Source: Jaapia argillacea MUCL 33604
Lineage: Eukaryota; Basidiomycota; Agaricomycetes; Jaapiales; Jaapiaceae
Assembly (NCBI GenBank): GCA_000697665.1
Contig: KL197791.1
Span: 1-64,000, forward strand
DNA length: 64,000 nt
Direction of reading: 5' to 3'
The notes below the pieces were generated by a model. It was not told where the DNA came from, did not search any database, and saw only the letters and a program-made list of their open reading frames with translations. Positions 10,008 through 63,841 of the stretch are shown here, piece after piece (the first letter of the stretch is position 1; each line of letters begins with the position of its first letter). The position numbers and the translations under genes are program-made.

Positions 10008-10287
10008 TACTGTACGCGTCTGAATGGAGGCAACGGCCTGGGGACCATTACACCCCGAATTGTACCCCCCTTTAGCAACGGAGCCCCGAAATACCATTAC
10101 ACCCCCGAAATTGGCAACCAGCCGAAGGGTGGAACCGCATTTTTGCATTACTTTTAGTCCCATCGGAGCATTACATGGACCTGTGTTGTCAACCGGTCCA
10201 CCATTACCCATTACACACCCCGAAATAGGCAACGCAACGGGGGTGCCATTACGCATTACCGTTGCCTCCATTCAGACGCATACAGTA
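10008..10287. mobile_element. 280-bp MITE with 29-bp terminal inverted repeats, TA target
   Basis: The left end TACTGTACGCGTCTGAATGG and its continuation through GAGGCAACGG are repeated in inverse orientation at 10259-10287, with one mismatch in 29 bases. Both ends begin with TA, consistent with a TA target duplication (Tc1/mariner habit) and termini of CTGTA. The equivalent position in B block 2 (about 26430-26455) lacks the insertion. The interior has no transposase but repeats a CCATTACACCCCGAA-type word several times. The family assignment rests only on the TA target and length. Confidence 0.8.
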
Positions 10288-10799
10288 GTTGTATCAAAAA
10301 CCGACATGCAAAAGATAGCTTTCCTCATGGCGAACTAGGCTAAGATCTGGCCCGATAGAAAGTAACAGTGTGTTCAGACAGGTTGTAGTTTCTGCAGTAT
10401 TGAGATTGTTACTTACTGTCTAGTTTTCGTCTCACTTCCACATCCGACCCCGCTGTGCGTCTCGTCTTTCACGCCAATCCTCTGGCATGGGTACCGATAA
10501 GATTCGAGAACCTCGTCGCATCTCGGCTGGATTTTACAGTAGTTGCTAAATGATCGTATATGCACCCGTAGATGAGGGGTCGACTTATCGTCGCCCACAA
10601 CTTCTATGAGAGTTAATCATGTTGATGTTCCAACCCAAAAGTGTTGATACCGGCTCGCCCGTATCAGATACTAGCACCGCTAGTCACGTGGGTACAAGCT
10701 GCGATTGCTTGGAATGAGCATATATCTCGCAATGGGATCCTGGCCACACTGAGATATGAAAATTGTTAAGAGGCAGCGGAATACAATGTGCTGTTGACG

Positions 10800-12200: not shown

Positions 12201-12439
12201 AATACGGAGAAGTGATCGAGATGGACTTGGAGGCGGTGATTGAGTACCGGTGGGAAGAGGCAGCAGTGTGTGGTTGGTTTGAGGGCTTGCGAGAGGTGGG
12301 CGAGGGCGGGTGCTTATTGGATGAGATCGAGGTTAGAGCTTACCCAGACGAGATGAGTGCCATCGAGAGGGAGTGGAGCATGGTGGAAGCAGTCAAGTCT
12401 TGGATCGTCGACATGTTGGTTTGGGGTTCGCAACGAAGT

Positions 12440-14945: not shown

Positions 14946-14948
14946 ACA

Positions 14949-28260: not shown

Positions 28261-28499
28261 GCAACCGAAGTTGCTCGAGACGAGTACGGATAAGTGATCA
28301 ATTGATCAAGCTTCAAGGTGACTTGGAGGCCTTAATGGAGAAGAGGGAGCAGTGTACGATTGGTTTGAGGGCTGGCGGAAGGTGGGCAACTGTGGGAACT
28401 TGTTGGATGAGATCGAGGTTAGGAGTTACGCAGACGAAATGAGTGGCCATCGAGAGTGGAGCATGGTTGGAGTTGCAGCAGTGGGATGAAAGTGCAGGC

Positions 28500-41900: not shown

Positions 41901-42616
41901 AGGTACCGATCCAGGAGGCTCACCGACGCAAACAATTATGGGCGGAGAAGTATCGCGCCGCACGAACCGCAATGATCAACCTTGGTCTACCCTCGGACGA
42001 TCCCAGCTTCCCCGAGCTTCACGACAAGGATATGGCTATCAAAACCATTGATCAACCTTGGGAACTTGGCGATGGGAGCAAGAGCGAGGGGTGGATATGG
42101 CACATGGGTCCACTTGGTCAGCTATCGGATGACGAGCAAGAGGAATGGAGTGTGGAAGGTGTGTGGGCTTTGATTTCCTCAGCGGCATACTTGTTGATGG
42201 CTTTGATTCAGTGGATCGAGTGCGCTGGTTCCGCGAACGTGCCGATTTGGAACGATGGGAGGAAGAAGTTGAGTCGATTTACGCTGAGCTGAAGCGAACC
42301 ATCAAATCGTGCCAGAAAATGAGCGAAGTCTGGGCAGCCTTGGCAGGTAAAAGTGACCAAGGTCGAGGGTATGGCGAGTATGGCTATAAGCAATCAGCAA
42401 TGTACGAATGAATGGCGAATGATAGCCGGGAGAAGTTGGAAAGGGCTGCTGAGAGGTGCAAGTCAGTATTGGGTGTCGAATGGGCAGAAAGCATGGTAGC
42501 TTACATGGTATGTCTTTCTTCGTATTGGCTGGATCAAACATGCTAATCCAAGTTATTAGCCTGTTTCAGCGACACAGAGTGATCCATCCGATCCAAATGG
42601 GCCCGGGGATGCTTGA
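38979..42616 (+). CDS. KDZ transposase with CxC2 zinc cluster
   Basis: Eleven exons keep phase: 38979-39284, 39342-39932, 39987-40183, 40233-40395, 40449-40591, 40653-41050, 41095-41286, 41335-41458, 41512-42158, 42212-42507 and 42560-42616. A 5'UTR intron (about 38924-38968) precedes the start. Residues 5-30 are Lys/Arg-rich (probable nuclear signal). The CxC2 cluster has Cys135, 137, 146, 151, 158, 161 with His166 and His172. The RNase H-like core has Asp375 in SLDGNHGLLKK, Asp495 in YDISCQ and Glu556 or Glu559 in GELIEGSWAESN, followed by ASTKEMNHGHRHDSL. A TGA at 42409-42411 (after SAMYE) ends the protein at 986 residues. The family pattern continues (MANDSREKLERAA), so CGA to TGA probably removed the last 50 residues. 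Catalytic parts are intact. Confidence 0.88.
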
Positions 42617-43080
42617 ACGGAGAGAGGAGTATCCTCTCACTCTCGTTGCCCCATCTTTCCCCCCGACATCTCGTTCCAACGCGTGTCTGAACGGGAGAGG
42701 ACAACGCCCTCGTTCCCTCGGTCCCCCCTATTTATTCCCCCGACATCTCGTTTAAACGTCGTGTTTGAACGGGAGAGAGCAACACCCTCGTTCCCTCGGT
42801 CCCCCCTCTTTATTCCCCCAACATCTCGTTCAAACGCGTGTTTGAACGCGGGAGGACAAGGTCCTCTTGCTCTCGATCCCCCCCTCTTTCTTTCCTCGAC
42901 ATCTCGTTTAAACGTCGTGTTTGAACGGGAGAGAGCAACACCCTCGTTCCCTCGGTCCNNNNNNNNNNACGTTCAAACGTGTGTTTGAACGGAAGAGAAC
43001 AATCCACTCCTCCCCTCGGTCCCCCTTTTTTTTTCCCTGGCATCTTGTTCAAACGGCGTGTTTGAACGGAAGACCCTATT
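42614..43080. repeat. Right subterminal tandem array, unit about 80-90 bp
   Basis: Each unit contains GTTCAAACGCGTGTTTGAAC (or GTTTAAACGTCGTGTTTGAAC) followed by GGGAGAG..CCTCGTTCCCTCGGTCCCCCC and CGACATCTC. About six units are visible. The palindromic GTTCAAAC..GTTTGAAC heart is shared with the left array. The first unit overlaps the last transposase codons. Confidence 0.85.
42959..42968. other. Assembly gap of 10 N in the right KDZ array
   Basis: Ten N bases interrupt the tandem array. The true number of units, and hence the element length, is unknown here. Confidence 0.99.
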
Positions 43081-43216: not shown

Positions 43217-44360
43217 ATCTTCGATGAGCTCACCGCGTTGGAGGAAGGTCGACGTTCTCAGATGAGCGTAGTTTCGACGGGTTTGTGAGTCGGCACCGCG
43301 GTACCTTGGAAGCAAGTGTTCGAGTTGGGAGGCAGGAGCAGCCCAGTATGTCGTTTCAGCCATAATTTCATCGGGTCCTATTTGATGCTTGTCCTAGTCT
43401 TCGGTAAATCTCTATCCTCGTCTTATCCTCGATCTCCTGGTCCAGTGTTCTCGCCCTCCCTTCTTGGCCACGACGCCATCCGACCGCTGATTTTCACGTC
43501 GTCAAACCTCGCCAAGCGCTGGCGGTATATGCTAGATGGGACGGAGGAGAGACTTACGAGACATTGAACGCGACGGACGGCGTCCTCGCGGTAAGATGAG
43601 AAGAACATTGTAACCCACCTACCGCTCGCTTATATCTGTTTTCTTTTTTCTTTACTTCGCACGTCGCCACATCATGCAACGTCAAACGAAAGTGAGTGAT
43701 CTCAGGCTCGTATCAAACTCCACAACCATCTCAGACCCAATGACTGACTGATTCATGTCTTAGTAGAGCTCGTCCGACCCTTGACCATCTATTCTCTATG
43801 TTCTCGTACGCATCACCTCCGCCTTCAACCCTCACGTTCTCACTGTACATTACGACTCTCATAAATGGAGCCAACTTCTCCGGAGCCTCGTTCGGACTCT
43901 CCCTTGTCAATAGTTGATCTTTTTGCGAATCGCGAACAAATATACATGCATAGCAGCTGAAAATATCGAGCTGGGGTGTTATCGAGCTCCGTCCAGCGTG
44001 ACAAACTAATATGAGGACAATATAGTATGAACAACCATTCGGTATTACGGGCAGGGTCTGACGAAGAGCCAATTTTCACTCCTCCGAAAACCCATCGTCG
44101 ACGTTGATTTCCCAGACATAAACCAGCCAACGACGTGGCCATCGCCGCAGGAATAGATAAGACGCTTCAGCCGAAAGGGAACAAACGTTCGTGATCAGTA
44201 GGGAATGTACGTGTTTCGATCCGGACGAGGACAATGGATCGGGCATACGGATATGTGTGAGTGAATGGGGACGATGTTCGATGGTCCGAAAGACATCAGA
44301 CGTCATGGTGATTGTCTCAGTGAGAGACGCATACGCGATGTACACACCAAACTCCAGAAC
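43217..44360 (+). repeat. A block copy 3, right part
   Basis: Similarity to A block 1 resumes at ATCTTCGATGAGCTCACC (compare 1918 on) and runs to the Y-like end near 44340 (compare 3060). The fragment EEGRRSQMSVVS..VGTAVPWKQVFELGG is conserved with 1950-2045, but a TGA at about 43287 stands where copy 1 has CGA. The stretch HDAIRPLIFTSSNLAKRW near 43470-43525 is the best preserved copy of that peptide in the window. Confidence 0.75.
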
Positions 44361-47300
44361 CAACTGTCGAATTCCAACCTCTCTGCTTTCGTGAACTTCT
44401 CTGCGCTGTTCTATGGTCAAAACCTCCATCCAACAGGGTCAAATTCCCAATCTCATTAGCCCGACCAATAGGCCCGACCAAACCAAGACCTTCCCTCTCC
44501 CCCATCAGACTCTCCCAATCGTTCTCCATGACAACAGATTCTCCGTCAACCCGAGTTCCCCTCGATGTTGCGATGAGAGAATGCAAGGTTTCGAGCTCCG
44601 AACAATGGGTGGGTGGATGGCTTGAGATGCAAGCTTGGAGGGTCCGAAGACACTCGGGTGATGTGTAGGTTTCTTCCATGCGTGAAAAGAAATGTAGGGT
44701 TGAGATGACTTAAGAAAGGATGTGTATGGGAAAGGGAGACAGCTCTGTGAACGAAGATTAAGACGTATTCTCAGATATATATGCTGGGAACAAGGACGTC
44801 AGTGAAGGTGGACGTTCGGCGATCTGAAAGTATCAAAGGTCACGATGGTGTTGGGAGAGATGCGAGATGCACGCACCAATAGTATCATCCAACCTCCCTC
44901 CCCCCTCCTTCATCAAAGTCTGCCTCGATCCCTATCAACTCCTCCCACCGTTCGTTTCCATCAGAATACCCCCTGGCTAGCACCAAAACCTTCGACCTCC
45001 TTCGTCACTTCGCCCACAAATCAGAAATCTCCCCCTCATTCAGACTCCATCCTTCTCCAGGACCGGGCACTCTGATTCAGCCCGAGCTTCCTCCGATGCT
45101 GCGATGAGGGGGTGTCAACTCTGAGATCCGTACGATGGATGGATGTAGAATCCGAATGGGGGATGTGAGTTGTAGGTTCCGAGTCGCACAGAAAGGAATG
45201 TGGCGGCTGATACGGTCGTGGATATGGGTGCGTGTGCGGAGACAGATGTGTACTCGAAAGGAGAAAGCAGTTGATGAACAAAAGGTACATGATTGGTTCA
45301 GGACGAGGGAATGGATCCGGCTTCTCGATATGTCGAAAACGGGAAGGCCGTTCGAAGGTCTTGACGTTATAAAAGGACAGGAGGGGTTTCAACCCTCCAG
45401 TTTCCGCACCATATCGACATGCCCACCACCACCACACACTCCCACTCCTTCCCGGACCAACTTCATAACTCTTTCTCCACCAAATCCTCCTCTCCCTCCT
45501 CTCCACCCAAAACGTATCATGCTCAGTGTCGCTCCACCACCAATCTGTCTCTCCTCCGTGAAGGTCTCTCGGCAATCAAGCCCTCGCAACGCTGCAGAAT
45601 CTTCGTCATTTCCTCTTCTTCCTGAAACATAGCCCCCCTCACCAGGTTCCCCTGCAATGCCAGTGAGTCGTCCCTTCTCCTACCCTCCCAGTCAGTATCC
45701 CCTCCCTTACAACGACATCTCCCGTCCGACTCATCCATCACCTCCAACACCACAACCTCCCCCGTGCTTTGTATGAGTCCGATTGAGTTGTGAATCTCAG
45801 ATTATGCGCGAAGTTTTCTCAAGAATCATTGGTACAGCGGGGGAGCGAGAGATGCATGTGGATGTGAGGTCGGATAGGCTAGGGAGCGCGGGAGGTTTCC
45901 TCCCTCTCAGGGGCTGTTCATCCCGCAAAGGAACCCGAAACGGAGCACTAAATTTATGAACGAAATTTGACATGGGTCTATAGATATATGGGTTGGCAAT
46001 GAGGACGTTTGAAGGTCTGAGAGCTATCAATGATCATGGAGCGGTGGGGAGAGATACGAAAGTGTACGCGCCGATATCAGAATCCACCCTCCATCGTCGT
46101 ACTGGACTCCCTTCTCGGCCATCAAAGCCTCCCTTCCTCCACCATCAATACTCCAGGCTCCTCCCCAGGCCACGAAAACCAAAGCCTCCTCTCTCTCCAG
46201 CCCACTCTCTTCCTCTCAATTCTCCACCAGCCCTTCTCCTACTTCTCCCCAACCGTCTTCAAATCTTCCGCCTCCTCTCTCCATCAGACTCCACCCTAGA
46301 GATCGCGATAACGCATCGCTCCACGACACATCGTTCCTCGAGGTTTTGGTAACAATAGCGGTTTCGCGTGCATGAATAATTAGGCCTTGATATAGGCAAA
46401 AGGTAACAGCTTTGAGATGGCTCGAGAAGGGATGTAGGGTTTCAACGGGGGTAAGAAGAGATGTGAGGTATGAGCTATGTGTGAACGATGAAATATGTTC
46501 ATGAACGGAAGGGAATGTGTATGCTTTGAGACGAGGAAATGCGTCGGGCGTTAAGATATGCATCCGGAATGGTAGGGGTTCGAAGGCCTGGAAGTTATGC
46601 AAGGTCATCAGGGTGGTGGCGATGAGTGATGCGAGATGTACGCACCGATACTGATCTCCAACTTCTTTCTCCGTCATCTGTCACCTGCTTCTCCGTCTCC
46701 GAGCCCTTACTCATCCACTAACAAAACCTCTCTTCCCATGATCAAACGCTCGTAGTCTCCTGCACACCCTACCAAACCCATGAACCTTCCTCCGTCATCA
46801 GATTCTCCCCACCCTTCTCCAAGACCAAACGTTCCCGCTCAACCAGAGTCTCCCTCTCCCTCATCAAACCTCCCATTGAACTCCATTCCTCCACCACCGC
46901 ACCCTCTCAGACCCGTTTCGTTCCCAAGAGAATCCAAAGTGCATCGGGCTCCGCAGTCGTCTCCAAGGAACTATATCGTATCGTTTCTAGGGAGGGTGAT
47001 GACGGAGTGGAAGTTGGAGACGAAGATGGAGGTCGGAGGGAGGGAGGGTTGATGCAATTTCGATATTGATGGTGGATTGTTGCGATGAGGGGGTGTAAAG
47101 TTTGAGGATTCGACGAGGCGATGCGGGGTCTGCGTGTACAATGAAGAGTTCCGGTGACGTATAGGTTTGGACGCCCGAGAAAGGAGACATCTGATTTGAG
47201 TACTTATGTGAGAAGGGGTAGGTCTCCGGTCGAAAAGGATCTGGACGAGAAGACCGAGACGAGTATGTTGTGAGTGGGATAGACGTTCAACGGTCTAAAA

Positions 47301-47830
47301 TGATCAAAGGTGATGAGGATGATAGTGGTGAGAGGCACGAGGTGTACGCATCGGTATCAACCTCCAACCCCCTCTGAAATCGGGCTTCTCCTATTCCGTC
47401 TTCGATACCTCCCTCCCTTCTCCGACGTCAAATGACCGATCCCTCTACGACCAAATTCCCACAGGATCCTCCACACCACACCAAGATCGAAGCCTCCTCT
47501 ATCATATCCCGGACGAAAACTTAACAGGCTTTCTCAATCTCTCATCCTTCCTTCCCGATCAAGCTTCTTCCCCTCACTCCTCGATGAATCGCCCTCCGCT
47601 TAACCAACCAAGGTTTCCACTCCTCCACTAATCCTCCCCTTAATGTCATCCAAATCTCCTCCCACTCATCAGATCCTCCTCCTTCCTTCACCATCAAACT
47701 GGAGCGTAGTGCGATCGCCCACAACGGGAACTTTGTTAATGAGATGTTGCGATGACAGGATGGAGGTTGAGTTACGATGAGGATGTACGGAAGTGACTCG
47801 TGGAGTTTCAGTGTGCGTAGAGGCAGGTGA
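44360..47830. repeat. XY repeat region 4
   Basis: This is the longest XY region. Y boundaries are near 44840, 46030, 46600 and 47310, and X boundaries near 46296 and 47705. The part 45150-45960 repeats 4250-5220, including ATTATGCGCGAAGTTTTCTC and CCTCTCAGGGGCTGTTCATC. No gene is supported. Open frames of 100-180 codons arise from the biased base composition. Confidence 0.55.
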
Positions 47831-47869
47831 GTGATGGGTTTTGACACTGGTGAGATGGATGGGCGGGTT

Positions 47870-49080
47870 AGCTACAGGGCTAATCAATCCTTACATCATC
47901 GCAAAATCCCAACCGTCCAAGTCTCATTTCTTCCTTCGCATCGACATGGCCATACTCGAGATGGCTGTACTCCCATTTCTATCGCCACAAGCACCCAGAG
48001 ACTCCCCGTCGTCTCTGTTGTGACATCCCTGCCGTGTTCCAACATCGCACCGACGACCCATGAAAGAACAGAATATGCTTGGATAAAGAGCAAGTCGGGA
48101 ATATAGAGAGGTTCGTCAACTCAGTGCGTCTTTCTCCCATTCACCATCCCCTTTCTTCGTCGTCGTCAGTTCCCTCCACTCTATTCTCCTCCTAAAAGGC
48201 ACTGCTCTAACGTCAAAATGTGCAGTTCTCCATCCAATCAGTCCTATTGCTACAATACCAATTCCAATCCCACCTTCTTTCTCTCGATTCAATACCTCCC
48301 ATCTTGAGCGGAGGATGGGGAGAGATGGTAGATGTTAGATTTCTAACGTGAGTGGCGATTGCCGATCGATTCATCTATCTCGTCGCGAATCTCATGATAT
48401 CCTCTACCATCCAATCTTCAGCTTCGCTCCACATTGACCACGTCACTCGCTAATCGCATCTCACATTCATCAACCACAAGATACCAATCCAATCGCTACG
48501 TCCCACCTACGATCAACAACCTCAATCCAGGAGAATGTCGCAAGCGCCATGGCAACTCATGTAAGTACTCCTAGATTTGCCTCCATTCTCTCTCTTCCGC
48601 TATAGCCCAATCTCATGCTAGTCTCTCAATATCGTCATTCTCAACGCGTCTATATCCTCGTCGCAGATTCTCTCAGCCACCCGTTTTTGCTATCCTCGCT
48701 TCTCAACCTCGTCCTTCCTTCGCCGAGCTCTGATTTCCGCGGTCTTATCCTTGATCTCCTACTTCAACACGATGCTTTCCTACCACTGGATTTCACGTCG
48801 TCGAACCTCGCCAAACGCTGACAGTGTCAGCATATATGTTAGCTGAGATGGGGCCGAGGCCTACGAGACGTTCAACGTGACAGACGGCATTTCCTCGCGC
48901 TGCGATAATATGCATGTCGTGACGCCTGAGGTTCGCTTATTCCTGTTTTTCTTTTACCTCGCGCCTCAGTACACCACGCAACGTCAAACGAAAGTGAGTA
49001 GTTTCGGGCTCGTATCAATTGCATACCCGTCTCAACCACATGAACTGATCAGTTCACACCGATGTCCCTTTCCCATACCA
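47870..49080 (+). repeat. A block copy 4
   Basis: Starts with the degraded leader GGGCTAATCAATCCTTACAT, continues with TTCCTTCGCATCGACATGGC (as at 613) and contains TTTCACGTCGTCGAACCTCG near 48790 and an intron-like CGTCAAACGAAAGTGAGTAG near 48980. It is shortened internally relative to copy 1. Confidence 0.55.
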
Positions 49081-52000
49081 CACATAAAATGTCAGAATCC
49101 GATCGTATGAAGAAGTCCGGAATCGAGAACATCATGGTTCGAGTCTACTACTCCACAAGAACGAAACCGCCCACAACCCCAACTTAACACATCTTTCTCT
49201 GGGCCCGGCCCTCTTGTCCTGGTCAATCCCCTCTACTCAATCTCCTCCTACCTCACCATCCCCAAGGTCGACGCCATCGGACCTCCTACATACCCAACCC
49301 ACCTCTCCACTATCGACTCGGGTTCGCCGAACCTGACAATAAACAATCCTCCTGCGTATAGGCTCGCATCATCAGCATTTCCCCACCACCACCAATCCTC
49401 TCTGCTTCTTCCTGCATCGACTGCTCTTCTGGATCTGCGAAACGAAATTGAGCGATGGAGTATTCGAAAAGACGAACGATAAGGATTCACCACCCGAACC
49501 AATAGGCCGGAATGTAAGTCGGCGAGCTTCATCTTGTCTCGTAACAGCCCGATAAAGCGAATTAATCTGTTTAGCTCGCAGACCCATTATGCCTTTGTTC
49601 TCTGATGGTATTGGGACTGGCACATCCTTCGGCCAGTTCACAAACTTATACCCGCGTTCCTTCACAAGCTCTGGGAGAGTTGACCATGGTACACCGCGAC
49701 CAGGAGGGTTGGCTCTGATTTCCTCTGAAAGGAGCACGAGGTTAATGAACGAAGACAAGGAGAAGCAAAGGGGTGAACCCAGTTTCTTCCTTAAATATAG
49801 TTTGATAGCGTTGACCTTTTTAGCCTTCGTCTTTTCACCCGTCCTAGGAGACGGAGTAGCGGCAACACCATTCATGGTGAGCATCATGTTCCCTTGGGAA
49901 ATTTCGGCCACAGGCACATCACGTTGAACGGCATGATTGTTTCTGGCGGGCGGAGGATCTTCATTCATGGGTTCGGAGCTGAATCCAGCAGGAACAATCT
50001 CTGACCTTCATGTGAAAGTAAATTTGGTTCGGCCTCAAGGAATGGATGGCAAGAAGCGAGACACTCACAGCCTCACATCGCCGAAGGTCAGGCGATCAAC
50101 AGTGGGTAACGAAATAAGTAAATCCTTTGAGCTTGCGACATTGATCTAAATGCCGACAGAATGAGGGCAATGTCGATAGAGGAGTGGGGATAAGCACACC
50201 ATTTCTCGTACCATCTCATCCAGCAGAGCTTGACAGTCAGTAGAAGATAACCTGGGATCCCTAAGTAGGGCAGAAATTGTCCCAATAGCATTGACTGATT
50301 CAGGCCCCATCGGGATGCTGGAGACAGGAAGCTGAGCAGTTGCAGAGGTCCCTTCGCCTGTAAGGCCAAGATCTAGCGAGGCGGTGAATATTGGGCCTTC
50401 GTAAAGAGCCATGAGGTGATCGTGGTCTTCCTGCTCGCTGAATCGGAGCGGTGGTATCGGTAGTATGGATTCAGCTTCATCTGCAACAATGATGGAGGCC
50501 CGCGGTGTGCCATTCTCTCTACCTCGTAAGAGTGTGGACTGATATATGACGGAGTCAGCCCATTCCAGCAAGGACAACCCCCCGAACAAAGGGTCGTGCC
50601 CGATTCCTGTTGCATGGATGGTGGGGGTGAAGATGGAGTGACTATGAATGACTGCAGCAGGTGGATCTGCGGCTATGTATTGCGGGGAGGGTGGGATATT
50701 GCTGGCTTGTGGATTGGATTTGGGAGAGGATCCTCGGGAGCTGGTAGGCATAGCGCGGCACTTCATACATTCCGACTCCGGCCAACGGGCAAACCCCTCG
50801 GGAAATTCGGGCACCTCTGATTTTTTTAGTAAAACCATGACAGAAACATATAAGTCGAGAAGTGGCGTGTCATGGTCCGTACAACAGGTATGTCCAGACT
50901 CCTCCATCTGTCGGTAAAAGGATGTTATGGCTGAAGTGTCCTCGGTCGCTGGCAGGCTGGGGAAATAGTCGAGAATCTTTGAGATCTGACGAAACCAGGA
51001 CCACCTATCACCGACAGCATCACATGCAATCCAAACAACTGCGCCCAGAAGTGTACGAGAGTTGGTGGATGCGGAGGAGGTGGAGGTGAATATGCAGTGT
51101 CTGATTGATTCTCGAATACTTCTCGGAGAGAACCTAATCGCCGTTCTCCATCCAGATGGATACGAGTTGATCCATGGAAGATAGCGAGGATCCGGAGATT
51201 CTACCTTGAGATGCTTCCTCAAGTGCGCATTGCACGAGTCCCATGTCTCGACAGTAAAGATCTCCGCTAGGCGCCGAAAACTATGTTGAATGTCCTCATC
51301 GAAGTCAAGGTTGGCTACCAGTGCACCATAAAGTACGTCAGGGTGCGCAAAGCCTTGATAATCAACAGGCATGTTGTCAGGTGTGACGGCCTCCTGGTGC
51401 TTGAAATCATCTGGAAAGTTGAAGAATGGTGATGGAGGCTGGTCTCTGGGTGGGAATCGATATGAGACAATATGGGCGCCCAATAGATCGAATAGCACTC
51501 ACCGGGCAGGGCAGTCTGTGGGGTCCAGGCAAACCACTCCAACTTCACTTTTCTTGGATAGCAAGGTGATAACATCGCACCAACTCGGGAGGTATTGCTT
51601 AACGTCGCGGTGGCAGGTATGCCCCGTCAAGTCCATCTGTTTACAGAATTTATCGAAGGTCTCGTGTGGTGCGTCGGATCTGAACCACGACCAGCAAAAA
51701 ATGTGGTTGGTCAACCGGAAAGTTCTTGTTGGTTGGAGGCCACATTCAACTTCACGACTTGCCGCGGTATCCGACGTAGACAGCATCCACCCTATGACGG
51801 CGAGTCTTAGTCCACGATCTGGCACTTCTTGAACCAGACGTTGTCTCGCCGAAAGCTCCCCACTGGCATGACGATCAGGGGGCGGAGATGAAGAAGTGGA
51901 TTGCAAACGTCGGCGCAGTGCGTGAGCGGCATCACGTCGGAACTGGTCTGTCATCCAGCCGTGAAACAACCGCCATGGAGGGAAGAGGGATGATTCCCGC

Positions 52001-53570
52001 TGGGTCGCAAATTCCTCCGCCCATTTCTCATCTCCATCCACCCACAGCCAAACATCCAGGTCGTTATCGTTGCCTTCGAGAATGCGTACGAGAATCCTGG
52101 GAGCCCAATCTTGATCCTTCGATTGGCCGATATCCGTTAGAATATCCCACATGAGAAACAAACGGTTCGATCGGACGGGCCCGTCGCTCTCGAGCTCTTC
52201 CAACAGTTTTTGATCATCGTTCGAAACGGATGCGGGAATGGGGGTGTATGACAGGTTGGTGAGATCGCTAAACGGTGGTAGGGAGTATTGATTTGTGAGC
52301 GCATCGTCAAGCGAAGATGATCTGTAGTAGCCGTCCATCGGAGGCGAGAGTGATGCACCCTAGGATTTCAGCGGCGACGAATGGGCCGAGGTGAGCGGGT
52401 AGTGAGATTATCGGTGGTGCTGCGCACTCGAAGGAGGGAGTGAAGGTGTCGGATTGAGCAATGGTGAGATTCAGTTCATTATGTGATTGCGGTTGACGAT
52501 ACAGTCGATGTGCGAGTCTTGTCGGAAGGATGAGAGGTGAGTGGTTGCTGCATAGTGTTATCTGTACCGAGCACAACACTATGGTGTCATTTTGGTGCGA
52601 TAAGTACATGCCAGGGCCCAGCAATGTGGTAGCCGGAAGTATTCACGATAAGCCCCCAACCCATGTGTCTCCCAGCGTCTATTTGACCCTCCGATTAGGC
52701 AACCTTCAGCGTCAATACTGTGGTGACGGTAGAACGAGTTTGTATGTAGCGAATGAGCAAGCAGCATGTGGTCAGATTATACCACACAGGAGGGAACAAC
52801 GGACGGTGATAAGTATTCACAGCATGGCGAAAACAAGATGTTCATATCACCGCCAGTGTCGCCATCCCTCGATACATAGCTTGACACCCCAACGTGCAAA
52901 ATCGAGACTGAGATTGCGCCCAATGCAAAAGTAACATGTTCAGATGATTTGCGTTTCCACTACTTATTGAAATCATTACTTACTGGTCAAGTTTTCGTCT
53001 CCCCAGAAATCCCCACCATTCGACCCTCCCTGTGGATCTCATCCTTCGCGTAGATCCTATCGTGCTGATACGCGCAGGTAAGATTTGAGAACAACATTGT
53101 ATCTTGGCTGCATTTTTCAATAATTTTGCTCAGTGACTGTATGCATATAACTGGGGGGTGGTCAACTTACCGCCGTCTATAATTTCTATGAGGGTCAATC
53201 TCGTTGGAATTTCAACTCGAAAGTGTGAACGCAGGCTCGCCTATATGATATACTCCAGCGCCGGTCGTGTGGGTTAAGTCATCATCGCGAGAGGCCCTCC
53301 CAACGACCTGTAAATGCTCGGAATTGGACTAGATCCCAAAATGAGATCCTGGTGGCGCTAAAATATGGAAATGGTAAAAAGGCCGCGGATTACATTACAT
53401 CATTCCTCTCACCGTTGAACAACACTCTCAGGGTAGGTGTCTTCGGGTCCCAGGGATCCTTCCTCAAGAACTTGATAGCATATAGAATCCAACAAACGAT
53501 TGCGCAGGGTCTCCGTGGTGGGAAGAAGGGCTATCGCGCGAGATCCTTCAGGAATAGAGGCGGCGGTTGG
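49080..53570 (-). repeat. B block copy 3
   Basis: The 3' flank at 49090-49200 matches 6180-6290 and 22710-22850. The gene follows, then the upstream region with CATGTG at 52662, and a distal segment near 53100-53380 equivalent to 10540-10790. The distal part is more diverged than between copies 1 and 2. Confidence 0.65.
49310..52338 (-). CDS. B gene copy 3: duplicated N-module + WPKDVPVP-domain protein, intact (932 aa)
   Basis: Exons 51503-52338, 50200-51445, 50069-50145, 49491-50005 and 49310-49434 join in phase to 933 codons. Residues 1-690 form the module shared by all B genes, with two similar halves: each has an aromatic/Asp-rich segment (LDVWLWVDGDEKW; PWINSYPSGW), then QMD/QME..GHTC, a WCDVI.LLS or VMVLLKKSEV segment, and a closing C..C pair. 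A low-complexity Ser/Pro linker follows. Residues about 780-890 form a compact domain (KAKKVNAIKLYL, GVPWSTLPELV, WPKDVPVP at 844-851, INSLYRAVT) that I have seen as an uncharacterised basidiomycete domain. The last exon is acidic (EEQSMQEEAERIG). No signal peptide or membrane helix is evident. Function is unknown. This is the reference copy for the others. Confidence 0.75.
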
Positions 53571-54740
53571 TAACAAGAGAACCGAGACCAACGTATTGGT
53601 TTGCAGGAAAGGGAGACGAAGAGCCGGGGATGAGTTTTGACGTACACACGTCGCTGGAATTCAGCAGATTGAGCGCTGAGGATGATACCTACTTGCTTGA
53701 TGTGACGACAAGACAGCGGTATCTTCCTGGTGGGTTTCGAATTCTATACTCGCAATTGCTCGAGCAAAGGCCAGACAACCACGCAGTGAAGGCTAAGAAC
53801 GCCGAGCCAGGGCAACGTCACTACTCCTGGTTCAAACCAGTTCGAGGAGCTCTACTTGCGACCCAGAAAATCCGACAGCGCTGTCGCTGTCGAAGACCCA
53901 GTGACGAATCGCACGAAAGTGCGCTGAGATTCATAGATGAGTATGGACGCAAACGAGAGAGGTGTCACAAGCAACATGTTCGGACTGGGCAACGATGAAG
54001 CGGAACGGGATATTCGGAACGACCACGTGGGTGGAAGTTGCATCCAGCCTCATCATCTCCATCGCGCTCAAGATGACTCTTTGGCGTCGATTGGACATCT
54101 TTCCACTTGCTTTCCATCTCTGCATCTGCCTGTCTGGCGTCCGGTGTATACCCCTGCACATCTCTCCACCGTCCGAGCTAGTCTTGTCATCTATCATTAT
54201 CATCGCAGATGTCGAACGTTTGAGCTCCTCTTCGTCGTCGCTCCTTCCTCCAAGCTCACACATTACCCCCCTGTATCCCTCTGCTCGATATCGAAAGCTA
54301 TCAATGGCACCATAATCACGACTTCTCCTCCGGTTTCTAAAGCTTATGTCGACGGTACGACTCGACGGGCTTAGCTATCGCACCCTTCACTACCGTCTCT
54401 GTTGAAGCTGAGCATGGAGAACCACGATTAGCGTTTGCGCCCAGCGTGCCGCCTTTCATTCTCTATACTACGATTACGGGCCCTTCGACCTTATTGGGGT
54501 TGTTGCTACTGGCGGCACGGGAGCTGGAGATGAGAAGTGGAGCGGGGGAACTGTCGACTTGGCGGTGCGGTATGGGCGGTACAAGGGCGTGGAGCTTCAT
54601 ACGGTGTCAAGAAAGCTGGTTCTAGCATGGCTTCGAGTACTGGTCCGGAGTACCCATCTGCGCTGTCTCAATTCAGAGTACATGGGACGGAGGTGTACAC
54701 GAAGGTCGTGGTACTGAGGAAGGACTCTGGATGTACGTTC
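53570..54740 (+). other. Unique segment with coding-like fragments, unassigned
   Basis: This stretch does not match the A, B or XY blocks. A plus-strand frame at 53567-53998 (143 codons) and, after a possible GTACGA donor near 54355, a fragment reading LAIAPFTTVSVEAEHGEPRL then LLGLLLLAARELEMRSG (about 54370-54540) look protein-like, but no complete gene could be built. It may be the remains of a host gene. A run resembling the Y boundary begins near 54680. Confidence 0.25.
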
Positions 54741-57240
54741 CGATATCAAAAGTCAACCTGCTTGGTCGGAAACATCGAAGATCTCGCTCCCTTCTCCGTT
54801 TTCAAGCCCTCACTCGCTCCTTCTCATCAAAATTTCCCATCCCTCCATTACTGCACCAAAATCAAAGCTTCCCCGACCCATCACTCTCCCCAGACCGACC
54901 ATTGTCGCCGCCAATTGCAACCGCCCTCCTATCACTCATCCCACGTGACCGAGCCCTCGCTACGCTCGTTTCAGCGATCAGAATCCTCCTCTGCTCCATC
55001 AAAACCTCCCTCATCAGGCTCCCTTACTCTGCAGCCGACATCCTCCCCCACGCTTCCAGTCAAGATTCCCACCGCCATCTGACTCGTCTACCTCCTATCA
55101 CCACAAAATCCGCTCCCGATCGGGTCGTGGTTCCGGCTCATGGGTTAAGTTTTCTCGAATACCATGAGTCTTGGATAGGTTGGGAATTTTAGGAGGAGAC
55201 GAGCGTGTAAGGGATGTGGGATTTGAGATGAGGGAGAAAAGGCTGTGGGGTTGAGAGGAATTGTGAGAGGCGAGAGGAAGGAATTGTCGGTGAACAGGAA
55301 AGGATGTTTGTGAATGGGACTTGAGATGAATTTACGGACGGGCAGAGATTTCAAAGCCTATTCGCCTGTATCACGATCCAATCTTGATCCTCGGTCGCTC
55401 CTCCCTTCTCAGTCTTCAAGCCTTAACCCTCCCTTCTCCGCTGTCAAAACCTCTCTTCCCACCCTCATCAACCCCATCGAAATCAAAGTTCTACCCAGTC
55501 GCTCTCCCATCCTCCTTCGTACCTAGCGTTCCAAGCCCTTTCTCGATCCCTCGAAATCGTCGCCTTGCCCCTATCTCCTCTACCTCAGTCTTCGTCCTCT
55601 CACTTCTCCAACAGCCCTCCTCCTCCCTCAACCATCAAACAATCCTCACCTCAGCCTAGTGCGAGTTCTCAAGACGCATCGTTCCACGAGACTACGAGGT
55701 GGACGCTTGGCAACGATACAGGCTTTGAGTGTCCGAATAAGGAAGCGAGTCGCAGGCTTTGATGCGGGGGAAATTTGATGGCTTCGAGATGGCTTCGAGA
55801 AGGGACACTGGGTTGCAGATGACCATTGGGTTTGAGCTCTATGTGACCAGGGAAGTATGTTTGTGGACGGAGGGCAATGTGGAAGTCTTCACACGGACGG
55901 GAATATAGATCGGGCGTTTAGATGAGTCCGGAATGGTGGGGTTTCGAAGGCCTGGGAGTTATGCAATGTTATGAGGGTGGTGGCGATGGGTGATACGAGA
56001 TATACGCACCGATACCCTTCTACAACCTCCTTCATCATCATCGAACACGTGCTTCTCCGTCTTCAAGCCCTCACCCCTCTCCGAGATACTACCTCCCTTC
56101 GTGCCACCATCTACTCTCAGCCACCTCTATAATCCCACCACATTCAAAACCTTGCCTCTCCTCTCAGGTGCTCTGAGTCACCATCCTTCGTCAAGATCAA
56201 TATTCGTCATCCAGAGCTTTCCCTTCCCTCATCGAACCTCCCATCGACCTCCATCCCTCCATCACCACACACTCTCAGACCCTTTTCGTTCCCAAGAGAC
56301 TCCAAAATGCACCAAGCTCCGCAGTAATCTCTAAGGAGCTATATCGTACTGTTTCTGGGGAGGATGATGACTGGGTGGAAGTTGCCGGCGAAGCTGAAGG
56401 TCGGAGGGAGGGGGAGCTGATACACCTTAAGAGGATATCCGTTTTGAGAGATATCTGATAAGGCATGTGTTTGCGAGGAGAACGTAGGCTGATGGCCGAA
56501 AAGGATGGGACCGAGAAGATTGAGACGAGTTTGAGGTTGTATGCTGTGAATGAGCAGGTCGTTCGATGGAGTAAAGTGGCCATGGCGGCGGCGAGAGATA
56601 CCGATCCCATGCTCCAACCTTCTTCCCAACCCTGTCTCGACCTCTCATCAAAGCTTCCAGGCTCTTCCTTCTCGGACAAATCATCCTCCTCTACTTCAAC
56701 CCCCTTCCTCTCGCTTCTTCGCTAACTCTCCTCTTCTCACTCATCAAAGCCTCCCCACCTGTTCTCCATCACGGGTCTCCCCCTGCGTATTCTCTCCCTT
56801 TACGGCCACGTGTCCTCTTCCCACTCGTCAGCGTCCGCTCGCACTTTAAAGCCCCTCACGGCTCCACCAAAGTTTCCCTCACGTCTCCCTCAACCGTCCT
56901 CTCACTCATTAAGTTCCATGCTTGCTTTCACCACCAGACTCTCGCCTAGCGCAATCGCCCATAACACATGATGCAGGGAGGGTGCGAGATGGGATTTGGT
57001 GATTTTGAGTGTTCGATGAATGAGGCGAGTGTAGATGATTGCCGAAAGGGATACGGGACCTGGACGAGGGTGAAACGCAATGTGGGGTCTGACTTGGTCG
57101 CGACCAGGGCAAAACGGTTGTGGACGAAGAGGGATGGCTGTTCTGACATGTATGAGGAAAATGTATCAAATATACGTTGGAAAGGGGAGGACGGAGTTGG
57201 AAGTACGACTCACGCGAAGGCATACGACCTGTAGTCAATA
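54740..57240. repeat. XY repeat region 5
   Basis: Y boundaries lie near 55970 and 56570 (and a degraded one near 54730), and X boundaries near 55660 and 56943 (CTAGCGCAATCGCCCATAAC). Purine and pyrimidine stretches alternate as in the other regions. The part 55660-56480 resembles 46300-47060. No gene is supported. Confidence 0.55.
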
Positions 57241-57700
57241 AATCAATATCTCCATCGAAAATGCTCTGAATCCAAATACCAACCCAGCTGCTTGCCCGGC
57301 ACCTCAAATCACACCTCGTTCCAACATCATCCTAACTGACGAACTGGAGCCTAAGGAAAGATGATAATGTGATTGACCTCACACTACCCTAATATCCCTC
57401 GCATGGTCGCGCAGTAGAGGCTGACAGCGATCGGTGGAGGTCGGTGGAAGAATGCAGGCAAGTCATGGTCGTCAAAGTGTTGGTTTGAGGATTGCAACGA
57501 ACTTGGTTCGGACCAAGCCCTTCTCCATGCCCAAATGCCCTCCCATGAGAGTTGTTTCAGGTTTCGTCTTTTGTTCGCCTCCAAGATACAACTATCGACT
57601 TCGGCAACCTTGACAATCTCGAAGGCTAATCTCTTAGGTGTCTTCGCATCCCCCATATGGCCTCTTCCTCGAATCTTCCGCAATCAACTTATCGGACTTC
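57240..57700. other. Spacer without gene
   Basis: Mixed-composition sequence with no conserved block landmarks and no convincing open frame. Confidence 0.4.
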
Positions 57701-58740
57701 GCGGGATGAGACAAGGAGTTTGGGGAAGGATGGTTCATAGTAGATCAACAAGGTGGGTCGTGAGCTCTGATCAATTCATCCACGTCGTCGTGAATCTCAT
57801 GACGCCCCCTTCCACCCAACTTCCATCTTAGCTTGGCCCTTGACCCTCGAGTCCACCACATTACTCATTACTCCCATCCCTCACCTCCAGATGGTCAATC
57901 GAGGCGTCTCCATTCGAACACACCACGCCAAACTCTGCTTCCCAATCCCGATAAACAACTTCAATCCTACTAGTAGCGTTCCTTAGGGTGAATCTCCGAT
58001 GCGTCTTCGCCTCTCAAGGTGAGTAGTCACGGATGTGTCCCCGTCCTCACTTATCGACTACTGCTCCCTATTCTCACACTACTCTCTCCAAATCCCCATC
58101 CCCGTGGTCACTCCATATCTTCGTTCTAATCGCCTCTCCATATCGTTCCCAGCATCACTCAGCCACGGTTCTTTTACCTCTCTCCTTCGTCACTTTGGTC
58201 GTCGCTCCTCTTGTCGCCCCACTTGGATTTCCTTGGATCCTCCAAACTAACATCCCCAATTCCTATGAGAGAAAAATCCTTCCAGTTTCGAGTCTTGAAA
58301 ACACGCATAGTCAGTTGCCAACCGATCTCGATTCGCGTTCTCTGCGGTACGTTATACCTATCCGGCAGCATGCTTTGCTTATCCACTACGCGCACTATTT
58401 CCAACTCAGTACTGTTGCAGAATCAACAAAATTAGGGTTAGCCGCGATGCAAGATGGCGTCACCCTCCCCAACAATATTAGAAAAAGGAACATGGGATGG
58501 GTCCAGTCGAAGAGTATCAGCTCCCTGTCAACGGGTCACCACTCTGGAAGGTACGGATATCGCTGTTGATATGTTCGTCGTGACGCTACGTTGGAGGAGG
58601 GTCGACGTTCAAAGGTAACGGGAAGTTCGATGGACTTGAGACTTGGTAGCCTGAAGGGCGGAAGGCACCACCCAGTATATCATTTCCGCTAAAATTTCAT
58701 CACCTCCGGTTCGTACCATCCTCATATCACTCTAGCCTAT
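57700..58740 (+). repeat. A block copy 5
   Basis: Matches the part of A block 1 from about 1208 onward: ATTCATCCACGTCGT (57773 and 1257), then CTCAAGGTGAGTAGTCACGGATGTG (58013; compare 1466), and TTGGAGGAGGGTCGACGTTC near 58590. Similarity ends near 58740, where the 3' region of B gene 4 begins. Confidence 0.6.
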
Positions 58741-58981
58741 GAAAATACATGATATTGCCTTCGAGGCTCTTCCCTCTTTTGGGTATCCCCAGATTTAGTG
58801 GCGGTGTTCCCTCTGGGTTTTTTACCATTGTTTGGGGGATCAAGAAGATTAGTCGATCGCTGTCCAAAACTCGATATTATGTTGCGTGGGCAAATGACTG
58901 CGATTGTTCGATTAGATCTGTCGCACTGCCAATGGACACTGAGCGATTTCTGACGACCGTAGAAGGACTGAACAACATACC
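58740..58981. other. 3' flank of B gene 4
   Basis: Unique sequence between the A block and the stop codon of the kinase gene, probably its 3' untranslated region and terminator. It has no similarity by eye to the 3' flanks of B genes 1-3, in keeping with the different C-terminus. Confidence 0.4.
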
Positions 58982-61900
58982 TCAACTATTGGGATGCAGT
59001 TGATGCCTCTTCAACCTCTGCGCCACTTCGGCCATACCGGGTCTCATCGTAGCTTGATGGTCAAGACATTGATTGACCACCTCCCAGACATTGTCATCCA
59101 ACCCGGCTGCCACCACACTTGGTTCCGTTGGCCTCCCGGGTTTTACCCCCGCGATGATCGCTCCCATGACCTGCATGTTCATTGGCAAGTCGTGATACGG
59201 TTGATGACCCGTGAATATCTACCGTCAAACGTCAAACGATCAATTTTCCAGAAAATATTCCGTATACGATGCAAGACAAGGAACCGCACCTGAATAACCA
59301 AGCACCCGAAGGCGAAAACGTCACTTTGCAAGGTCGGGCGATCGGCAAAAAGGAGCTCAGGAGCAGCAAAGCGGAGAAGACCGAAGGCATTGGTGTCAGA
59401 TGGTGTCCGTGTCATTGACGCAATCTCCTGTACACACCGAGCGAGGCCAAAGTCACATAGAAGAGCATCGCCGCCCTCGGAGATTAGAACATTGTCCTGT
59501 GATATGATAGTGAGAAATACCACCGACATCGAGAGAGATAATGAGTCACTTACCCCTTTCAGATCACCATGAATATACCCTGCGGGATCTTGCCCGCCGT
59601 GCAGATACTCTAGGGCATCGGCGACCTGAGAAACCTAATTGAGAGTTCAGCTTTCGAGTATGGAGAAAGTGATCGAGGCTTACAATATCGGGACGACTGG
59701 CAGACGGGTTTGCACCCAAATACTGAAGACAGTTACCCTTTGCTGCCCACGGTGAAATCAAGAACAGCCGAAACTCTCCAAACCGTGCAAAGCCAAAAAA
59801 CGGTAAGATGAACGGATGTTTCAGCTTGGACCAAATCTTGGCTTCTCGGCGAAACCGCTAAACAAACGGTGTCACAAGTAAGTGCAAGTTTAGCAGACAG
59901 AATATGAGAGCCCTAGTTTCTCACCTTCCAACTCTTAGCCCGTTCGGAGTCGGTGCAATCACGAAATACGCGAATTTGCTTCATTGCTACCTTTGTTTGG
60001 GCCCCACTGGCATCCCATTTCAACTCTCCGACGTAGACATCACATGAGCCACCACCACAAAGAGGTTCATCGCCGACAATTGTGACCGAATTGGTGAGAT
60101 CCATGAAACCTGAAAACTGGAGGACATCCCCGCTTGGACAACCGTTATTGCGAGTTCGGCCTATCGCTCCAGAAGAGATGTGAGCAGAAGGGTCCGCTCT
60201 GTTGATATCTGCAGACCCTGGCGCACAAGGGGGGCTTGTGGAAGACGCTGTGGTATTTGTAAGGAATGCTGAAATATTCCTAACGCCATCAGCCGATCCA
60301 ACTTGGATTGGGACATTTGCGATGGGAGGCTGAGTGGCTGCGGAGGTCCCACCGATGGCAAGGCCAAGATCTGGTGAGCCAGTGAATGTTGGGTCTTCAT
60401 AGAGATCCATGAGGTGATCGTGGGCCTCCTGCTTGCTGGATCGGAGCAGCGGTATGGATAGTATTAAATCAACTTCATCGGCAGCAACAGTAGAGGCCAG
60501 TGGTGTGACTGGGTCGACCAGTTCCATCAGGGTCAACCCTCTTGGCAGAGACTCGTCCCTGATTTCCGGGGTGTGGAAGGTGGAGTCAATGGTGGCTTGA
60601 CTGGGAATGTCGATTGAAGGTGGATTAGTGGTTACAGGTCCCTGGGAGTGTGGGACATCACTGGCTTGTTGATTGGATTTGGGAGAGGATCTTCGGGAGC
60701 TGGTAGGAGGGGTATTCCCAGAGGATGAAGCAAGCACAACACGGCACTCCATACATTCCGACTTCGACCAAGGGGCGAACCCCTCGGGAAATTCGGGCAC
60801 CTCCGATTTTTTAAGTACAACCATGACGGAAAAATACAAGTCGAGAATCGGCCTGTCATGGTCTGTACAATAGGTATTTCCAGACTCCTCGATCTGTCGG
60901 TAAAAGGATGCCATGGCCGAAGTCTTCTCGGTAGCTGGAAGGCTGGGGAAGTGGTCGACAACCTCCGAGATCTGAAGAAACCAGGACCAGATATCACTGT
61001 CAGCATAACATGCAATCCACACAACTGCACCCAGAAGCACACGAGGGTTGGTGGATGTGGAGGAGGTGGAGGTCAATAGGCAGTGTCTGATTGATTTCCG
61101 AAGGCTCCTACAGTGCTTCGTCAACCAATACATAGCCCATCTCCATGCATCTGGATATGAGTTAATCCATGGAAGATAGCGAGGATTAGGAGTTTCAACA
61201 GTGAGATGCTTTCTCAAGCCTTTATTGCATGAGACCCATGTCTCAATGGTGAAGATCTCTGCTAGGCACTGAGAAATATGCTGAATCTGATGGTCATCAG
61301 GAATGCCAACAAATTTGGCCACCAGTGCACCAAAAAGTATGTCAGGATGTGAGAAGCCTTGATGATCAACAGGCATCTTGCCAGGAGAGACAGCCTCCTG
61401 GTGCTTAAAATCATCTGGAAAGTTGAAGAATGGTGATGGAGGTTGGTCTCTGGGTGGGAATCAATATGAGACACTATGAGTACCCAATAGTAAGGAGGAC
61501 TTACCTGACGGGGCAGTCTGTGCGGCTCAGGCAAACCACTCCCACTTCACTTTCCAGGGATAGCAAGGTGATAACATCACACCACCTCGGCAGGCATTGC
61601 TTGATTTTACGGTGGCAGGTGTGCCCCATCAGGTCCATCTGTTTACAGAATGTATAGAAGGTCTCGTGTGGTGGGTCGCATCTGAACCATTCCCATTGAA
61701 TGCGGTTGGTCAACTGGAAGGTTCTCGTTGGTTGGAGTCCACATTCAACTTCACGACTTGCCACGGTATTGGAGGTCGAGAGTATCCAATATATGGCGGC
61801 GAGTCGTATTCCACGATCTGGCACACTTTGAACCCGATGTTGTCTCGCCAAAAGCTCCATATTGGCAGTGCGATCCAGGGGTGGAGATGAAGAAGTGAAT

Positions 61901-62334
61901 TGCAAACGTCGGCCCAGCGCAACAGCGGCATCACGTCGGAACCGGCGCGTCATCCAACTATGAAACAACTGCCAAGGGACGACGATTCGCTGCCGATATG
62001 CGAATTCCTCCACCCATTTCTCATCTCCATCCACCCACAACCAAACATCCAGGTCGTTATCGTTGCCTTCGAGAATGCGTAGGAGAATCCTCGGAGCCCA
62101 CTTGCGATCCTTGGAATGGCTGATATACGTTAGAATATCCCACAAGAGATACAATCGGTACGATCGAATGGGCCTATCACTCTCGAGCTCTTCCAGCAGT
62201 TTTCGATCATCGTTCAAAAGGGATGCGGGAATGGGGGCATATGAGTGGTTGTTGACATCACTAGATGGTGGTGGGGGGTGTTGTTTTGTGAGTGTATCGT
62301 CGAGTGAAGATGATCCGTGGAAGTAGCCGTCCAT
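58982..62334 (-). CDS. B gene copy 4: duplicated N-module fused to a protein kinase, intact (1017 aa)
   Basis: Exons 61505-62334, 59925-61449, 59684-59857, 59554-59634, 59290-59496 and 58982-59218 join in phase to 1018 codons. Residues 1 to about 690 are the module shared with B genes 1-3. Similarity stops just after GVRNISAFL. A Ser/Pro-rich bridge then leads to a full kinase domain: Gly loop CGGGSCDVYVG (741-751), Lys767 in VAMKQI, Glu790 in RFRREAKIW, catalytic HGDLKGDN (Asp867, Asn872), DFG at 885-887 and APE at 915-917. HGD in place of HRD and the overall pattern fit the expanded tyrosine-kinase-like families of basidiomycetes; Ser/Thr specificity is more likely than Tyr. All catalytic residues are present, so it is predicted active. 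Substrate and trigger are unknown. Confidence 0.85.
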
Positions 62335-62689: not shown

Positions 62690-63440
62690 GGTGGTTAAAT
62701 TTCCATCCTTATCTTATCCTTGATCTCATGGTCCGGTACACGACCTCGTTCTTTCATCACGACGCTTTCCGACCACTAACATTCGCACCGTCGAACCTCG
62801 CCAAGCGCTGGTAGTGTCAGCATCGATTTTCGATGAGATGGAGGAGAGACTTATAAGATATTGTACGTGAAGACGGCGTCCTCGCGTTACTAGTAAGATG
62901 AGAAGGACATCGTAACCCACCTACCGCTCACTATGTTTTCTTTCCTTTCTTAATTCAGGCCTCACTACATCGCGCAAAATCGAACAAGAAGTAATCTCAG
63001 GCTCCTATCAAACTCCATAACCATCTCAAACCCAATGACTGATTCATTCGTGTCTTAGTTGAGCTCGTCCGGCTCTTGTGCATACATTCTCCATATTTCT
63101 CGTTTCATCATCTCCGCCTTCACCCTTGCGTTCTCACTGTAGATTACGACTCTCGTTAATGGAGTCATCCTCTCTGGACCCTCGTTCACAGAATATCCTA
63201 GGACTCACCCTTGTCAATAGCCGATCATTTTGCGAATCGCCAACAAATATACATGGATGGTATCTGAAGATAACGAGTTGGGTGTTATCAATCTAGGTCC
63301 AGCGTGATGAATGAACACGACGATGACATAGGATGAACAACTATTGAGGATGTGCGGACAGGGTCCGAAGGCGAAAAGCCGATTTTCACCCCTGTGAAGA
63401 CTGATCGTCGACGTTGATTTCCCAAACATGGACCAGCCTA
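62690..63440 (+). repeat. A block copy 6 (3' part only)
   Basis: Matches A block 1 from about 2110 to 2830: CTTATCCTTGATCTC, CCTCGCCAAGCGCTGG (62801), GACGGCGTCCTCGCG, GAGAAGGACATCGTAACCCACC, and the CCAATGACTGATTCAT..TTAG intron-like end near 63058. It lies directly upstream of the B gene 4 region. Confidence 0.65.
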
Positions 63441-63841
63441 CGACATGACCATCGCCTCAGAAATCGATAAGACGTTCCGGTTCAAGGGGAACAAAAGGGA
63501 ACATACGTATACCTCGTTCTCTCGTCGCCAAGACCTCAACGAATCACGATCATTGAGAGGATTGAGGTTCTGGGGCTGGGGCTGGGGTCCGAAGTGCGAG
63601 GAGGGTGGTAGCGAAGAACGTAAGGAGTCTCCAGGATAGAGCTGAAATTGAAGCCTGACGGACCAACGTGGATTTCGACTGGAGTTGGACTCCTCTGATC
63701 TGTTTCTCCATCTCCGTGTCGAACTACATCTACCACCTGGTGACCAGCATTCATCTTCCATCCATACACCATTGCAAGTTGCTCCAGCACCTCCAACTTC
63801 CCGCCAATAGTCGGTTATGGTACACAGTCGCGTGACATCGT
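63441..63841. other. Spacer next to the right-edge gene
   Basis: No repeat landmarks. A GGGGCTGG triplet repeat lies near 63570. It probably contains the 3' untranslated region of the minus-strand gene ending at 63842. Confidence 0.4.

Follow-up and report, generated by a model that had tools for sequence, protein, structure and literature searches.

In the fungal NLR/STAND proteins, NODs that are 80-99% identical are joined to distinct N-terminal effector domains, with protein kinase among the classes, and this effector variety is explained by relatively recent domain swaps, as described by Dyrka et al. (2014, PMC4986451). In plants, DUF26 is found in the CRK receptor kinases and the PDLPs, and the domain is described as having arisen in secreted proteins (PMC6368629). 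Regarding kinases, a basidiomycete TKL expansion has been described, with a large TKL set in Laccaria bicolor (Kosti et al. 2010, PMC2838846), and FslK was presented as a fungi-specific kinase lineage (Zhao et al. 2014, PMC3937382). Here, we analysed a stretch of 64,000 nucleotides from Jaapia argillacea MUCL 33604 (GenBank assembly GCA_000697665.1, contig KL197791.1, positions 1 to 64,000; hereafter the window), in which four gene copies share an N-terminal part of about 680 residues (N-module) followed by one of two different ends: a protein kinase in copy 4 and a small domain with a WPKDVPVP motif (WPKD domain) in copies 1-3. Judging from the sequence comparisons below, it is well supported that the C-terminal output part was exchanged within this tandem family. 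We also consider it somewhat probable that recombination in the tandem array joined a fungal kinase of the TKL/FslK type onto the N-module, an intracellular part of the protein.

The locus resembles the fungal NLR/STAND families as described in PMC4986451 in that a similar constant part carries an exchanged output, kinase included. It differs in that no NACHT, NB-ARC or repeat domain was found here and the exchanged part is C-terminal, and the constant part is 72-73% identical, a lower range than that given there for the NODs. As in the plant DUF26 families portrayed in PMC6368629, one tandem-duplicated module occurs with and without a kinase and the family has grown in tandem; unlike those proteins of secreted origin, the copies studied here have no visible membrane span, and the likeness is one of analogy only. 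The kinase of copy 4 is TK-like (tyrosine kinase-like), of a mainly Agaricomycete kind as covered by PMC2838846 and PMC3937382, and lacks the tyrosine kinase motifs, as FslK members do, a likeness judged by motifs; in contrast to these kinases, it follows a module of about 680 residues that has no name. The literature on fungal kinomes, NLR architectures, terminal-exon exchange and KDZ transposons yielded nothing specific to this combination, which is not to claim its absence from print.

Gene models were built from the sequence and from inter-copy comparison, with splicing predicted. The genes and their parts are:

58982-62334, minus strand: copy 4, N-module plus kinase gene, six exons, 1017 amino acids, intact
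62334-61505, 61449-59925, 59857-59684, 59634-59554, 59496-59290 and 59218-58982, minus strand: exons of copy 4
60240-62334, minus strand: N-module of copy 4, residues 1 to about 680, holding the intron 61504-61450
60200-60325, minus strand: switch between the tails within exon 2 of copy 4, reading frame kept, best placed near 60240
58982-60116, minus strand: complete protein kinase domain, residues 722-1017 of copy 4
49372-52338, minus strand: copy 3, N-module plus WPKD gene, four exons, 930 amino acids, intact
52338-51503, 51445-50200, 50145-50069 and 50005-49372, minus strand: exons of copy 3
49495-49818, minus strand: WPKDVPVP domain of copy 3, 108 residues
6452-9501, minus strand: copy 1, laid out as copy 3, broken
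23118-25885, minus strand: copy 2, laid out as copy 3, broken

Copy 4 is modelled with five introns, each 49-71 bp long and of the GT..AG form, and has zero internal stops in its 1017 codons. An earlier note on this DNA had assigned the WPKDVPVP tail to copies 1-3; the common layout agrees with this, but copies 1 and 2 are broken, which leaves copies 3 and 4 as the intact ones. Copy 1 carries an in-frame TGA (9046-9044) and a 32-bp insertion near its start, which shifts the frame from the common start, although an in-frame ATG inside the repeat could replace it. The insertion corresponds to tandem repetition of a 16-bp unit that directly follows the start codon (9420-9495, minus strand). In copy 2, exon 1 has lost 160 bp, an in-frame TAA precedes the WPKD domain, and 4 bp are deleted behind the domain. 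Both copies are therefore probable pseudogenes.

In order to place the switch between the two tails, DNA identity was measured in 200-column windows of a four-copy alignment. Between copies 3 and 4 it ranged from 0.58 to 0.87 in windows whose first position lies between 62358 and 60385, and from 0.28 to 0.48 in the windows from 60285 onward; the window starting at 60385 straddles the switch and the preceding one has an identity of 0.73. All three pairs among copies 1-3 hold 0.60-0.88 over alignment columns 2400-3900, and the loss of similarity near 60240 is confined to the pairs with copy 4. Base-level alignments, read by eye, also lose similarity near 60240, and tblastn of the copy 3 N-module stops at 60237 in copy 4, while blastn similarity stops earlier, at 60268-60325. 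The alignment of copies 3 and 4 proposed in the earlier note thus places the switch inside exon 2, as anticipated there, with identity falling to background in frame. Directly beyond it, the stretch 60117-60239 of copy 4, 123 bases long, scores like shuffles against copies 1, 2 and 3 (217, 58 and 36 of 300 shuffles, respectively, reach the observed score), ruling out that the tail of copy 4 is a diverged WPKD tail. The frame stays open across the junction and the full kinase starts about 40 residues further on. Models and alignments therefore agree with alternative C-termini, a kinase in copy 4 and the WPKDVPVP domain in copies 1-3.

We then compared what lies beyond the tails, where two features are distinguished:

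58702-60239, minus strand: kinase segment, to which nothing in copies 1-3 corresponds
56301-58701, no strand given: repeat-unit landmarks 3′ of the kinase gene, short, diverged and colinear

The 3′ limit of the kinase segment was set by a 46-bp match of 58656-58701 to the repeat block at 2030-2075. Specifically, the landmarks match 46933-48680, 12373-13108, 1434-1548 and 1938-2075 in the same order and on the same strand. The anchors at 56301, 57715 and 58107 on the side of copy 4 correspond to 46933, 48310 and 48621 on that of copy 3, with spacings of 1414 and 392 bp versus 1377 and 311 bp, and the last anchor common to both ends at 58166. From the last shared anchor to the stop codon, the distance is 816 bp in the kinase gene and 692 bp in the WPKD gene. 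In a shuffled-query control against positions 1-15000, no match was obtained in 20 shuffles at the same threshold. The landmarks show the two predicted tails to fill one slot of a unit of about 10 kb, pointing to a tail exchange and not to two unrelated loci. That landmarks resume beyond the kinase is the strongest argument for replacement of a 3′ gene segment within a single unit and against a misjoined assembly. Recombination is the likely cause of the tail difference, as the earlier note had suggested. Its other proposal, that a kinase gene gained the promoter and N-module of the family, is less likely because array landmarks flank the kinase on both sides, although those at the 3′ side are short and diverged.

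The tail of copy 4 matches the Pfam kinase profiles PF07714 (E 5.6e-35, profile positions 6-258 of 258) and PF00069 (E 2.2e-30), and the closest Protein Data Bank (PDB) sequence is the Src-Abl ancestor (E 5.8e-21). The catalytic residues are in place: K767 (VAMK), E790 (alpha-C), HGDLKGDN at 865, DFG at 885 and APE at 915. True tyrosine kinases carry DL(R/A)A(A/R)N, XP(I/V)(K/R)W(T/M)APE and GXR(L/M), as these motifs are given in PMC3937382. Copy 4 reads DLKGDN, GLLRFAAPE and GVKP instead, which rules out a true tyrosine kinase, and the missing motifs together with a proline at the fourth position of motif 3 (GVKP) agree with the motif definition of FslK. By these motifs, the tail is predicted to be a Ser/Thr kinase of the TKL/FslK kind. 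A second significant kinase was not found in the window.

The N-module is shared, as the earlier note stated, but the alignment gives it about 680 residues and not 690, and only one intron, not several, lies within the shared part. Protein identity between copies 3 and 4 is 73% in exon 1; in exon 2 it amounts to 72% for the first half and 61% for the exon including the Ser/Pro-rich linker in which the module ends. Upstream, similarity over about 310 bp is common to copies 1, 2 and 4, in line with the 300 bases noted before, whereas the similarity of copy 3 is shorter, extending over about 235 bp in the comparison to copy 1 and over about 110 bp in that to copy 4.

Searches with the exon 1, exon 2 and WPKD proteins gave no Pfam match up to E 10 except CCDC23, which matched copy 3 exon 1 insignificantly (E 0.18), and no NACHT, NB-ARC or ANK, WD or TPR repeats were found in them with Pfam. 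Similarly, NCBIfam, searched with the copy 3 pieces only, had an insignificant best E of 0.17, and nothing significant was retrieved from the PDB sequences for the N-module or the WPKD domain (best E 0.29); the WPKD domain, specifically, had no significant match in any of these three collections. No membrane span was seen, mean hydropathy being at most 1.6 across 19-residue windows, and the proteins are thus probably intracellular. The earlier description of a sensor-like module belonging to a recognition repertoire finds no backing here, given the lack of a family match and of a membrane span and with two of the four copies broken. Predicted structures were too low in confidence to be used: the mean predicted local distance difference test score (pLDDT) was 39 with 4 sequences of the N-module half encoded by exon 2, and 42 with 3 sequences of the WPKD domain. 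Profile searches with N-module exon 2 produced 28 pattern matches in viral contigs and 90 in prokaryote genome contigs, of which 0 were confirmed in either set; the WPKD profile had 37 in viral contigs, again with 0 confirmed.

A GHTC...SEV motif is common to both halves of the N-module, near the ends of exon 1 (51504-52338, minus strand) and exon 2 (50749-51444, minus strand). The internal match was obtained in copy 3 (BLAST E 3e-5, composition correction off) and was absent in copy 4 with the correction on; a profile comparison gave a probability of 44% (E 2.4e-4, 38 columns). This is a weak hint of an old internal duplication within the module.

To address the history of the copies, we compared substitutions, leaving out the out-of-frame linker rows of copies 1 and 2. 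In exon 2 of the N-module, the ratio of nonsynonymous to synonymous substitution rates (dN/dS) was 0.46-0.61 in the six pairs, with upper bounds of 0.72-0.85. Private single-base changes were counted in exons 1-2 and the linker, over 517 codons where the other three copies agree. These nonsynonymous/synonymous (N/S) counts were 22N/13S in copy 1 (P 0.047), 21N/21S in copy 2 (P 1.5e-4) and 17N/17S in copy 3 (ratio 0.30, P 6e-4). As copies 1 and 2 look constrained in spite of being broken, the test mainly reflects older history. Distance quartets favoured 34|12 in exon 1 (443 of 500 bootstraps) and exon 2 (417 of 500). For the linker, the preferred quartet was 24|13 (500 of 500), and for the upstream part it was 14|23, with weak support (306 of 500). 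In exon 2, copy 4 is nearest to copy 3 (distance 0.177), while copy 2 is farthest from all (0.239-0.244). With the WPKD tail present in three copies and copy 2 standing farthest off in exon 2, it is somewhat more likely that the kinase tail came later, inasmuch as this can be read from an unrooted set of four.

Several observations weigh against the reading of a kinase attached by recombination. The landmarks on the 3′ side measure no more than 22-190 bp, at 66-96% identity, and next to the kinase the match is to blocks at 2.0 and 43.2 kb and not to copy 3. In the kinase, the Gly loop (742) is degenerate (CGGGSCDV) and the arginine of HRD is replaced by Gly (HGD), while the predicted acceptor of exon 4 in the WPKD genes is AAG in copies 1 and 3. 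The private changes of copy 4 (18N/8S, ratio 0.69) do not depart from neutrality (one-sided P 0.25), so that this copy is without demonstrable constraint since the split, which counts against a strong functional claim. In a maximum likelihood (ML) tree built from the exons and the linker, copy 4 groups with copy 2 and not with copy 3, and the parsimony sites of exon 1 are nearly even (10, 11 and 8). Given that the quartets and the ML tree disagree among regions, the copies have probably exchanged sequence. The direction of the change is weakly supported, the relatives in this unrooted set coming from this window only.

Among the alternatives, the one that survives best reverses this direction: a gene with N-module and kinase would have lost the kinase, and the WPKD copies 1-3 would be derived and amplified. 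The missing root leaves room for it, the linker and 3′ flank of copy 4 have diverged strongly from those of the other copies, and the ML tree, in keeping copy 4 apart from copy 3, strengthens it at the expense of our reading. However, the WPKD tail is found in three copies and, under a clock, the exon 2 distances put the change on the branch of copy 4, and we see an ancestral kinase as possible but improbable.

It is a little less credible, and in our view unlikely, that copy 4 is a functionless chance chimera decaying like copies 1 and 2. The breakage of half of the family and the near-neutral private changes of copy 4 speak for it, but six exons amounting to 1017 codons with zero lesions, and a complete set of catalytic residues, do not have the appearance of decay.

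Another explanation would make the WPKD domain a separate downstream gene, with copy 4 as the sole fusion. In copies 2 and 3, exon 2 meets a stop soon past the predicted donor, and the domain is reached in copies 1-3 via two predicted introns, through an exon 3 of 25 codons. The 62 codons before the domain are unconstrained (dN/dS 1.03, 95% interval 0.47-2.46, copies 1 and 3) and hold the stop of copy 2, a Met shortly before the domain is kept in the three copies, and the AAG acceptor adds to these points. The gaps, in contrast, follow the predicted exons. Counted beside the lesions of exon 1 (32 and 160 bp) and of the end of exon 4 (4 bp), pairwise gaps among copies 1-3 were multiples of three in 22 of 22 cases in exon 2, were absent from exon 3 and numbered two, both of 3 bases, in exon 4 as far as the end of the domain. 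In the three introns, 10 of 12 were not multiples of three, and the flanks have many other lengths. That gaps keep the frame in the exons and break it in the introns supports the gene model with the WPKD tail; moreover, the introns start with GT and end with AG in all three copies. A separate gene is, as a result, rather doubtful. The domain itself had dN/dS values of 0.20, 0.21 and 0.25 between copies (upper 95% bounds 0.35-0.43), which show that it is under purifying selection. Motifs like W..LP..L...GY...NWP..V..P presumably recur in hypothetical proteins of Agaricomycetes, which we take as a lead and not as a test. A window search for a WPKD remnant beside copy 4 gave nothing significant.

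Finally, an assembly error fusing two loci near 60240, a risk raised in the earlier note for a position near 60250 and one to which tandem repeats are prone, is very improbable, as the frame is unbroken across the junction and the landmarks resume beyond the kinase with a spacing like that of copy 3.

The GC content of the window is 50% and the modelled introns are short. Self-comparison of the window identified the four gene copies, all on the minus strand, at about 6.1-9.8, 22.6-26.2, 49.1-52.6 and 60.3-62.6 kb. Copies 3 and 4 lie about 10.0 kb apart (9,959-10,004 bp over nine repeat families inside the gene). We read this as a tandem array of units of about 10 kb in a basidiomycete, with four copies of one gene, and our interpretation as a whole appears slightly better founded than not. 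Between the copies, the self-comparison also detected the following:

566-3087, 10292-13451, 26447-29923, 43217-48742, 55400-56424 and 62695-63495: inter-copy repeated blocks, about 65-86% identity

In tblastx of seven pairs of these blocks, judged by eye, no consistent reading frame was found: a given frame persists for no more than a few dozen codons, and the two strands obtain similar scores. For this reason, they were dropped as candidate genes and treated as non-coding parts of the array. An open reading frame (ORF) at 39330-39971 (plus strand, 213 residues) matches Pfam CxC2 (E 1.8e-28), labelled "cysteine cluster associated with KDZ transposases". This match, the GC content, the short introns and the type of kinase are all consistent with a basidiomycete origin, probably within the Agaricomycetes. 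Three more plus-strand ORFs at 36.7-42.3 kb had no Pfam match and may belong to the same element, which sits between gene copies 2 and 3. In addition, a weak RabGAP-TBC fragment was seen at 14949-15425 (minus strand; E 8.6e-4, 19.5 bits against a Pfam cut-off of 25.2), and overlapping direct self-matches of 73-81% at 42610-43073 suggest a degenerate tandem repeat.

Under the reading that we favour, the family would consist of a constant part of about 680 residues and an exchangeable last part. Ectopic, largely non-homologous recombination inside exon 2 would have given copy 4 its kinase in place of the 108-residue WPKDVPVP domain, the WPKD tail being the older and the kinase tail the acquired one. 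Provided that copy 4 is expressed and spliced as predicted, both of which we infer, the N-module may bind a shared partner or itself, and the kinase of copy 4 would turn this binding into Ser/Thr phosphorylation. The copy 3 protein, which has no kinase, could use its WPKD domain to act on that partner, either as an adaptor or as a competitor. A broader interpretation, which we regard as speculative and unlikely to hold in full, is that N-module and WPKD domain are two undescribed basidiomycete families in a cassette system. The N-module would then be a fast-evolving intracellular recognition module, whose output, a kinase or a kinase-less adaptor, would be swapped by array recombination to create an active and a competing version of one receptor-like protein.

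Mushroom-forming fungi have many TK-like kinases without known input. Two domains of this family are unnamed in the libraries searched, and one of them, WPKDVPVP, is under purifying selection. The array provides an example of how a protein may gain or lose a kinase inside a tandem array, and its intact paralogs, which differ mainly in their output part, would constitute a natural experiment on the coupling of the shared module.

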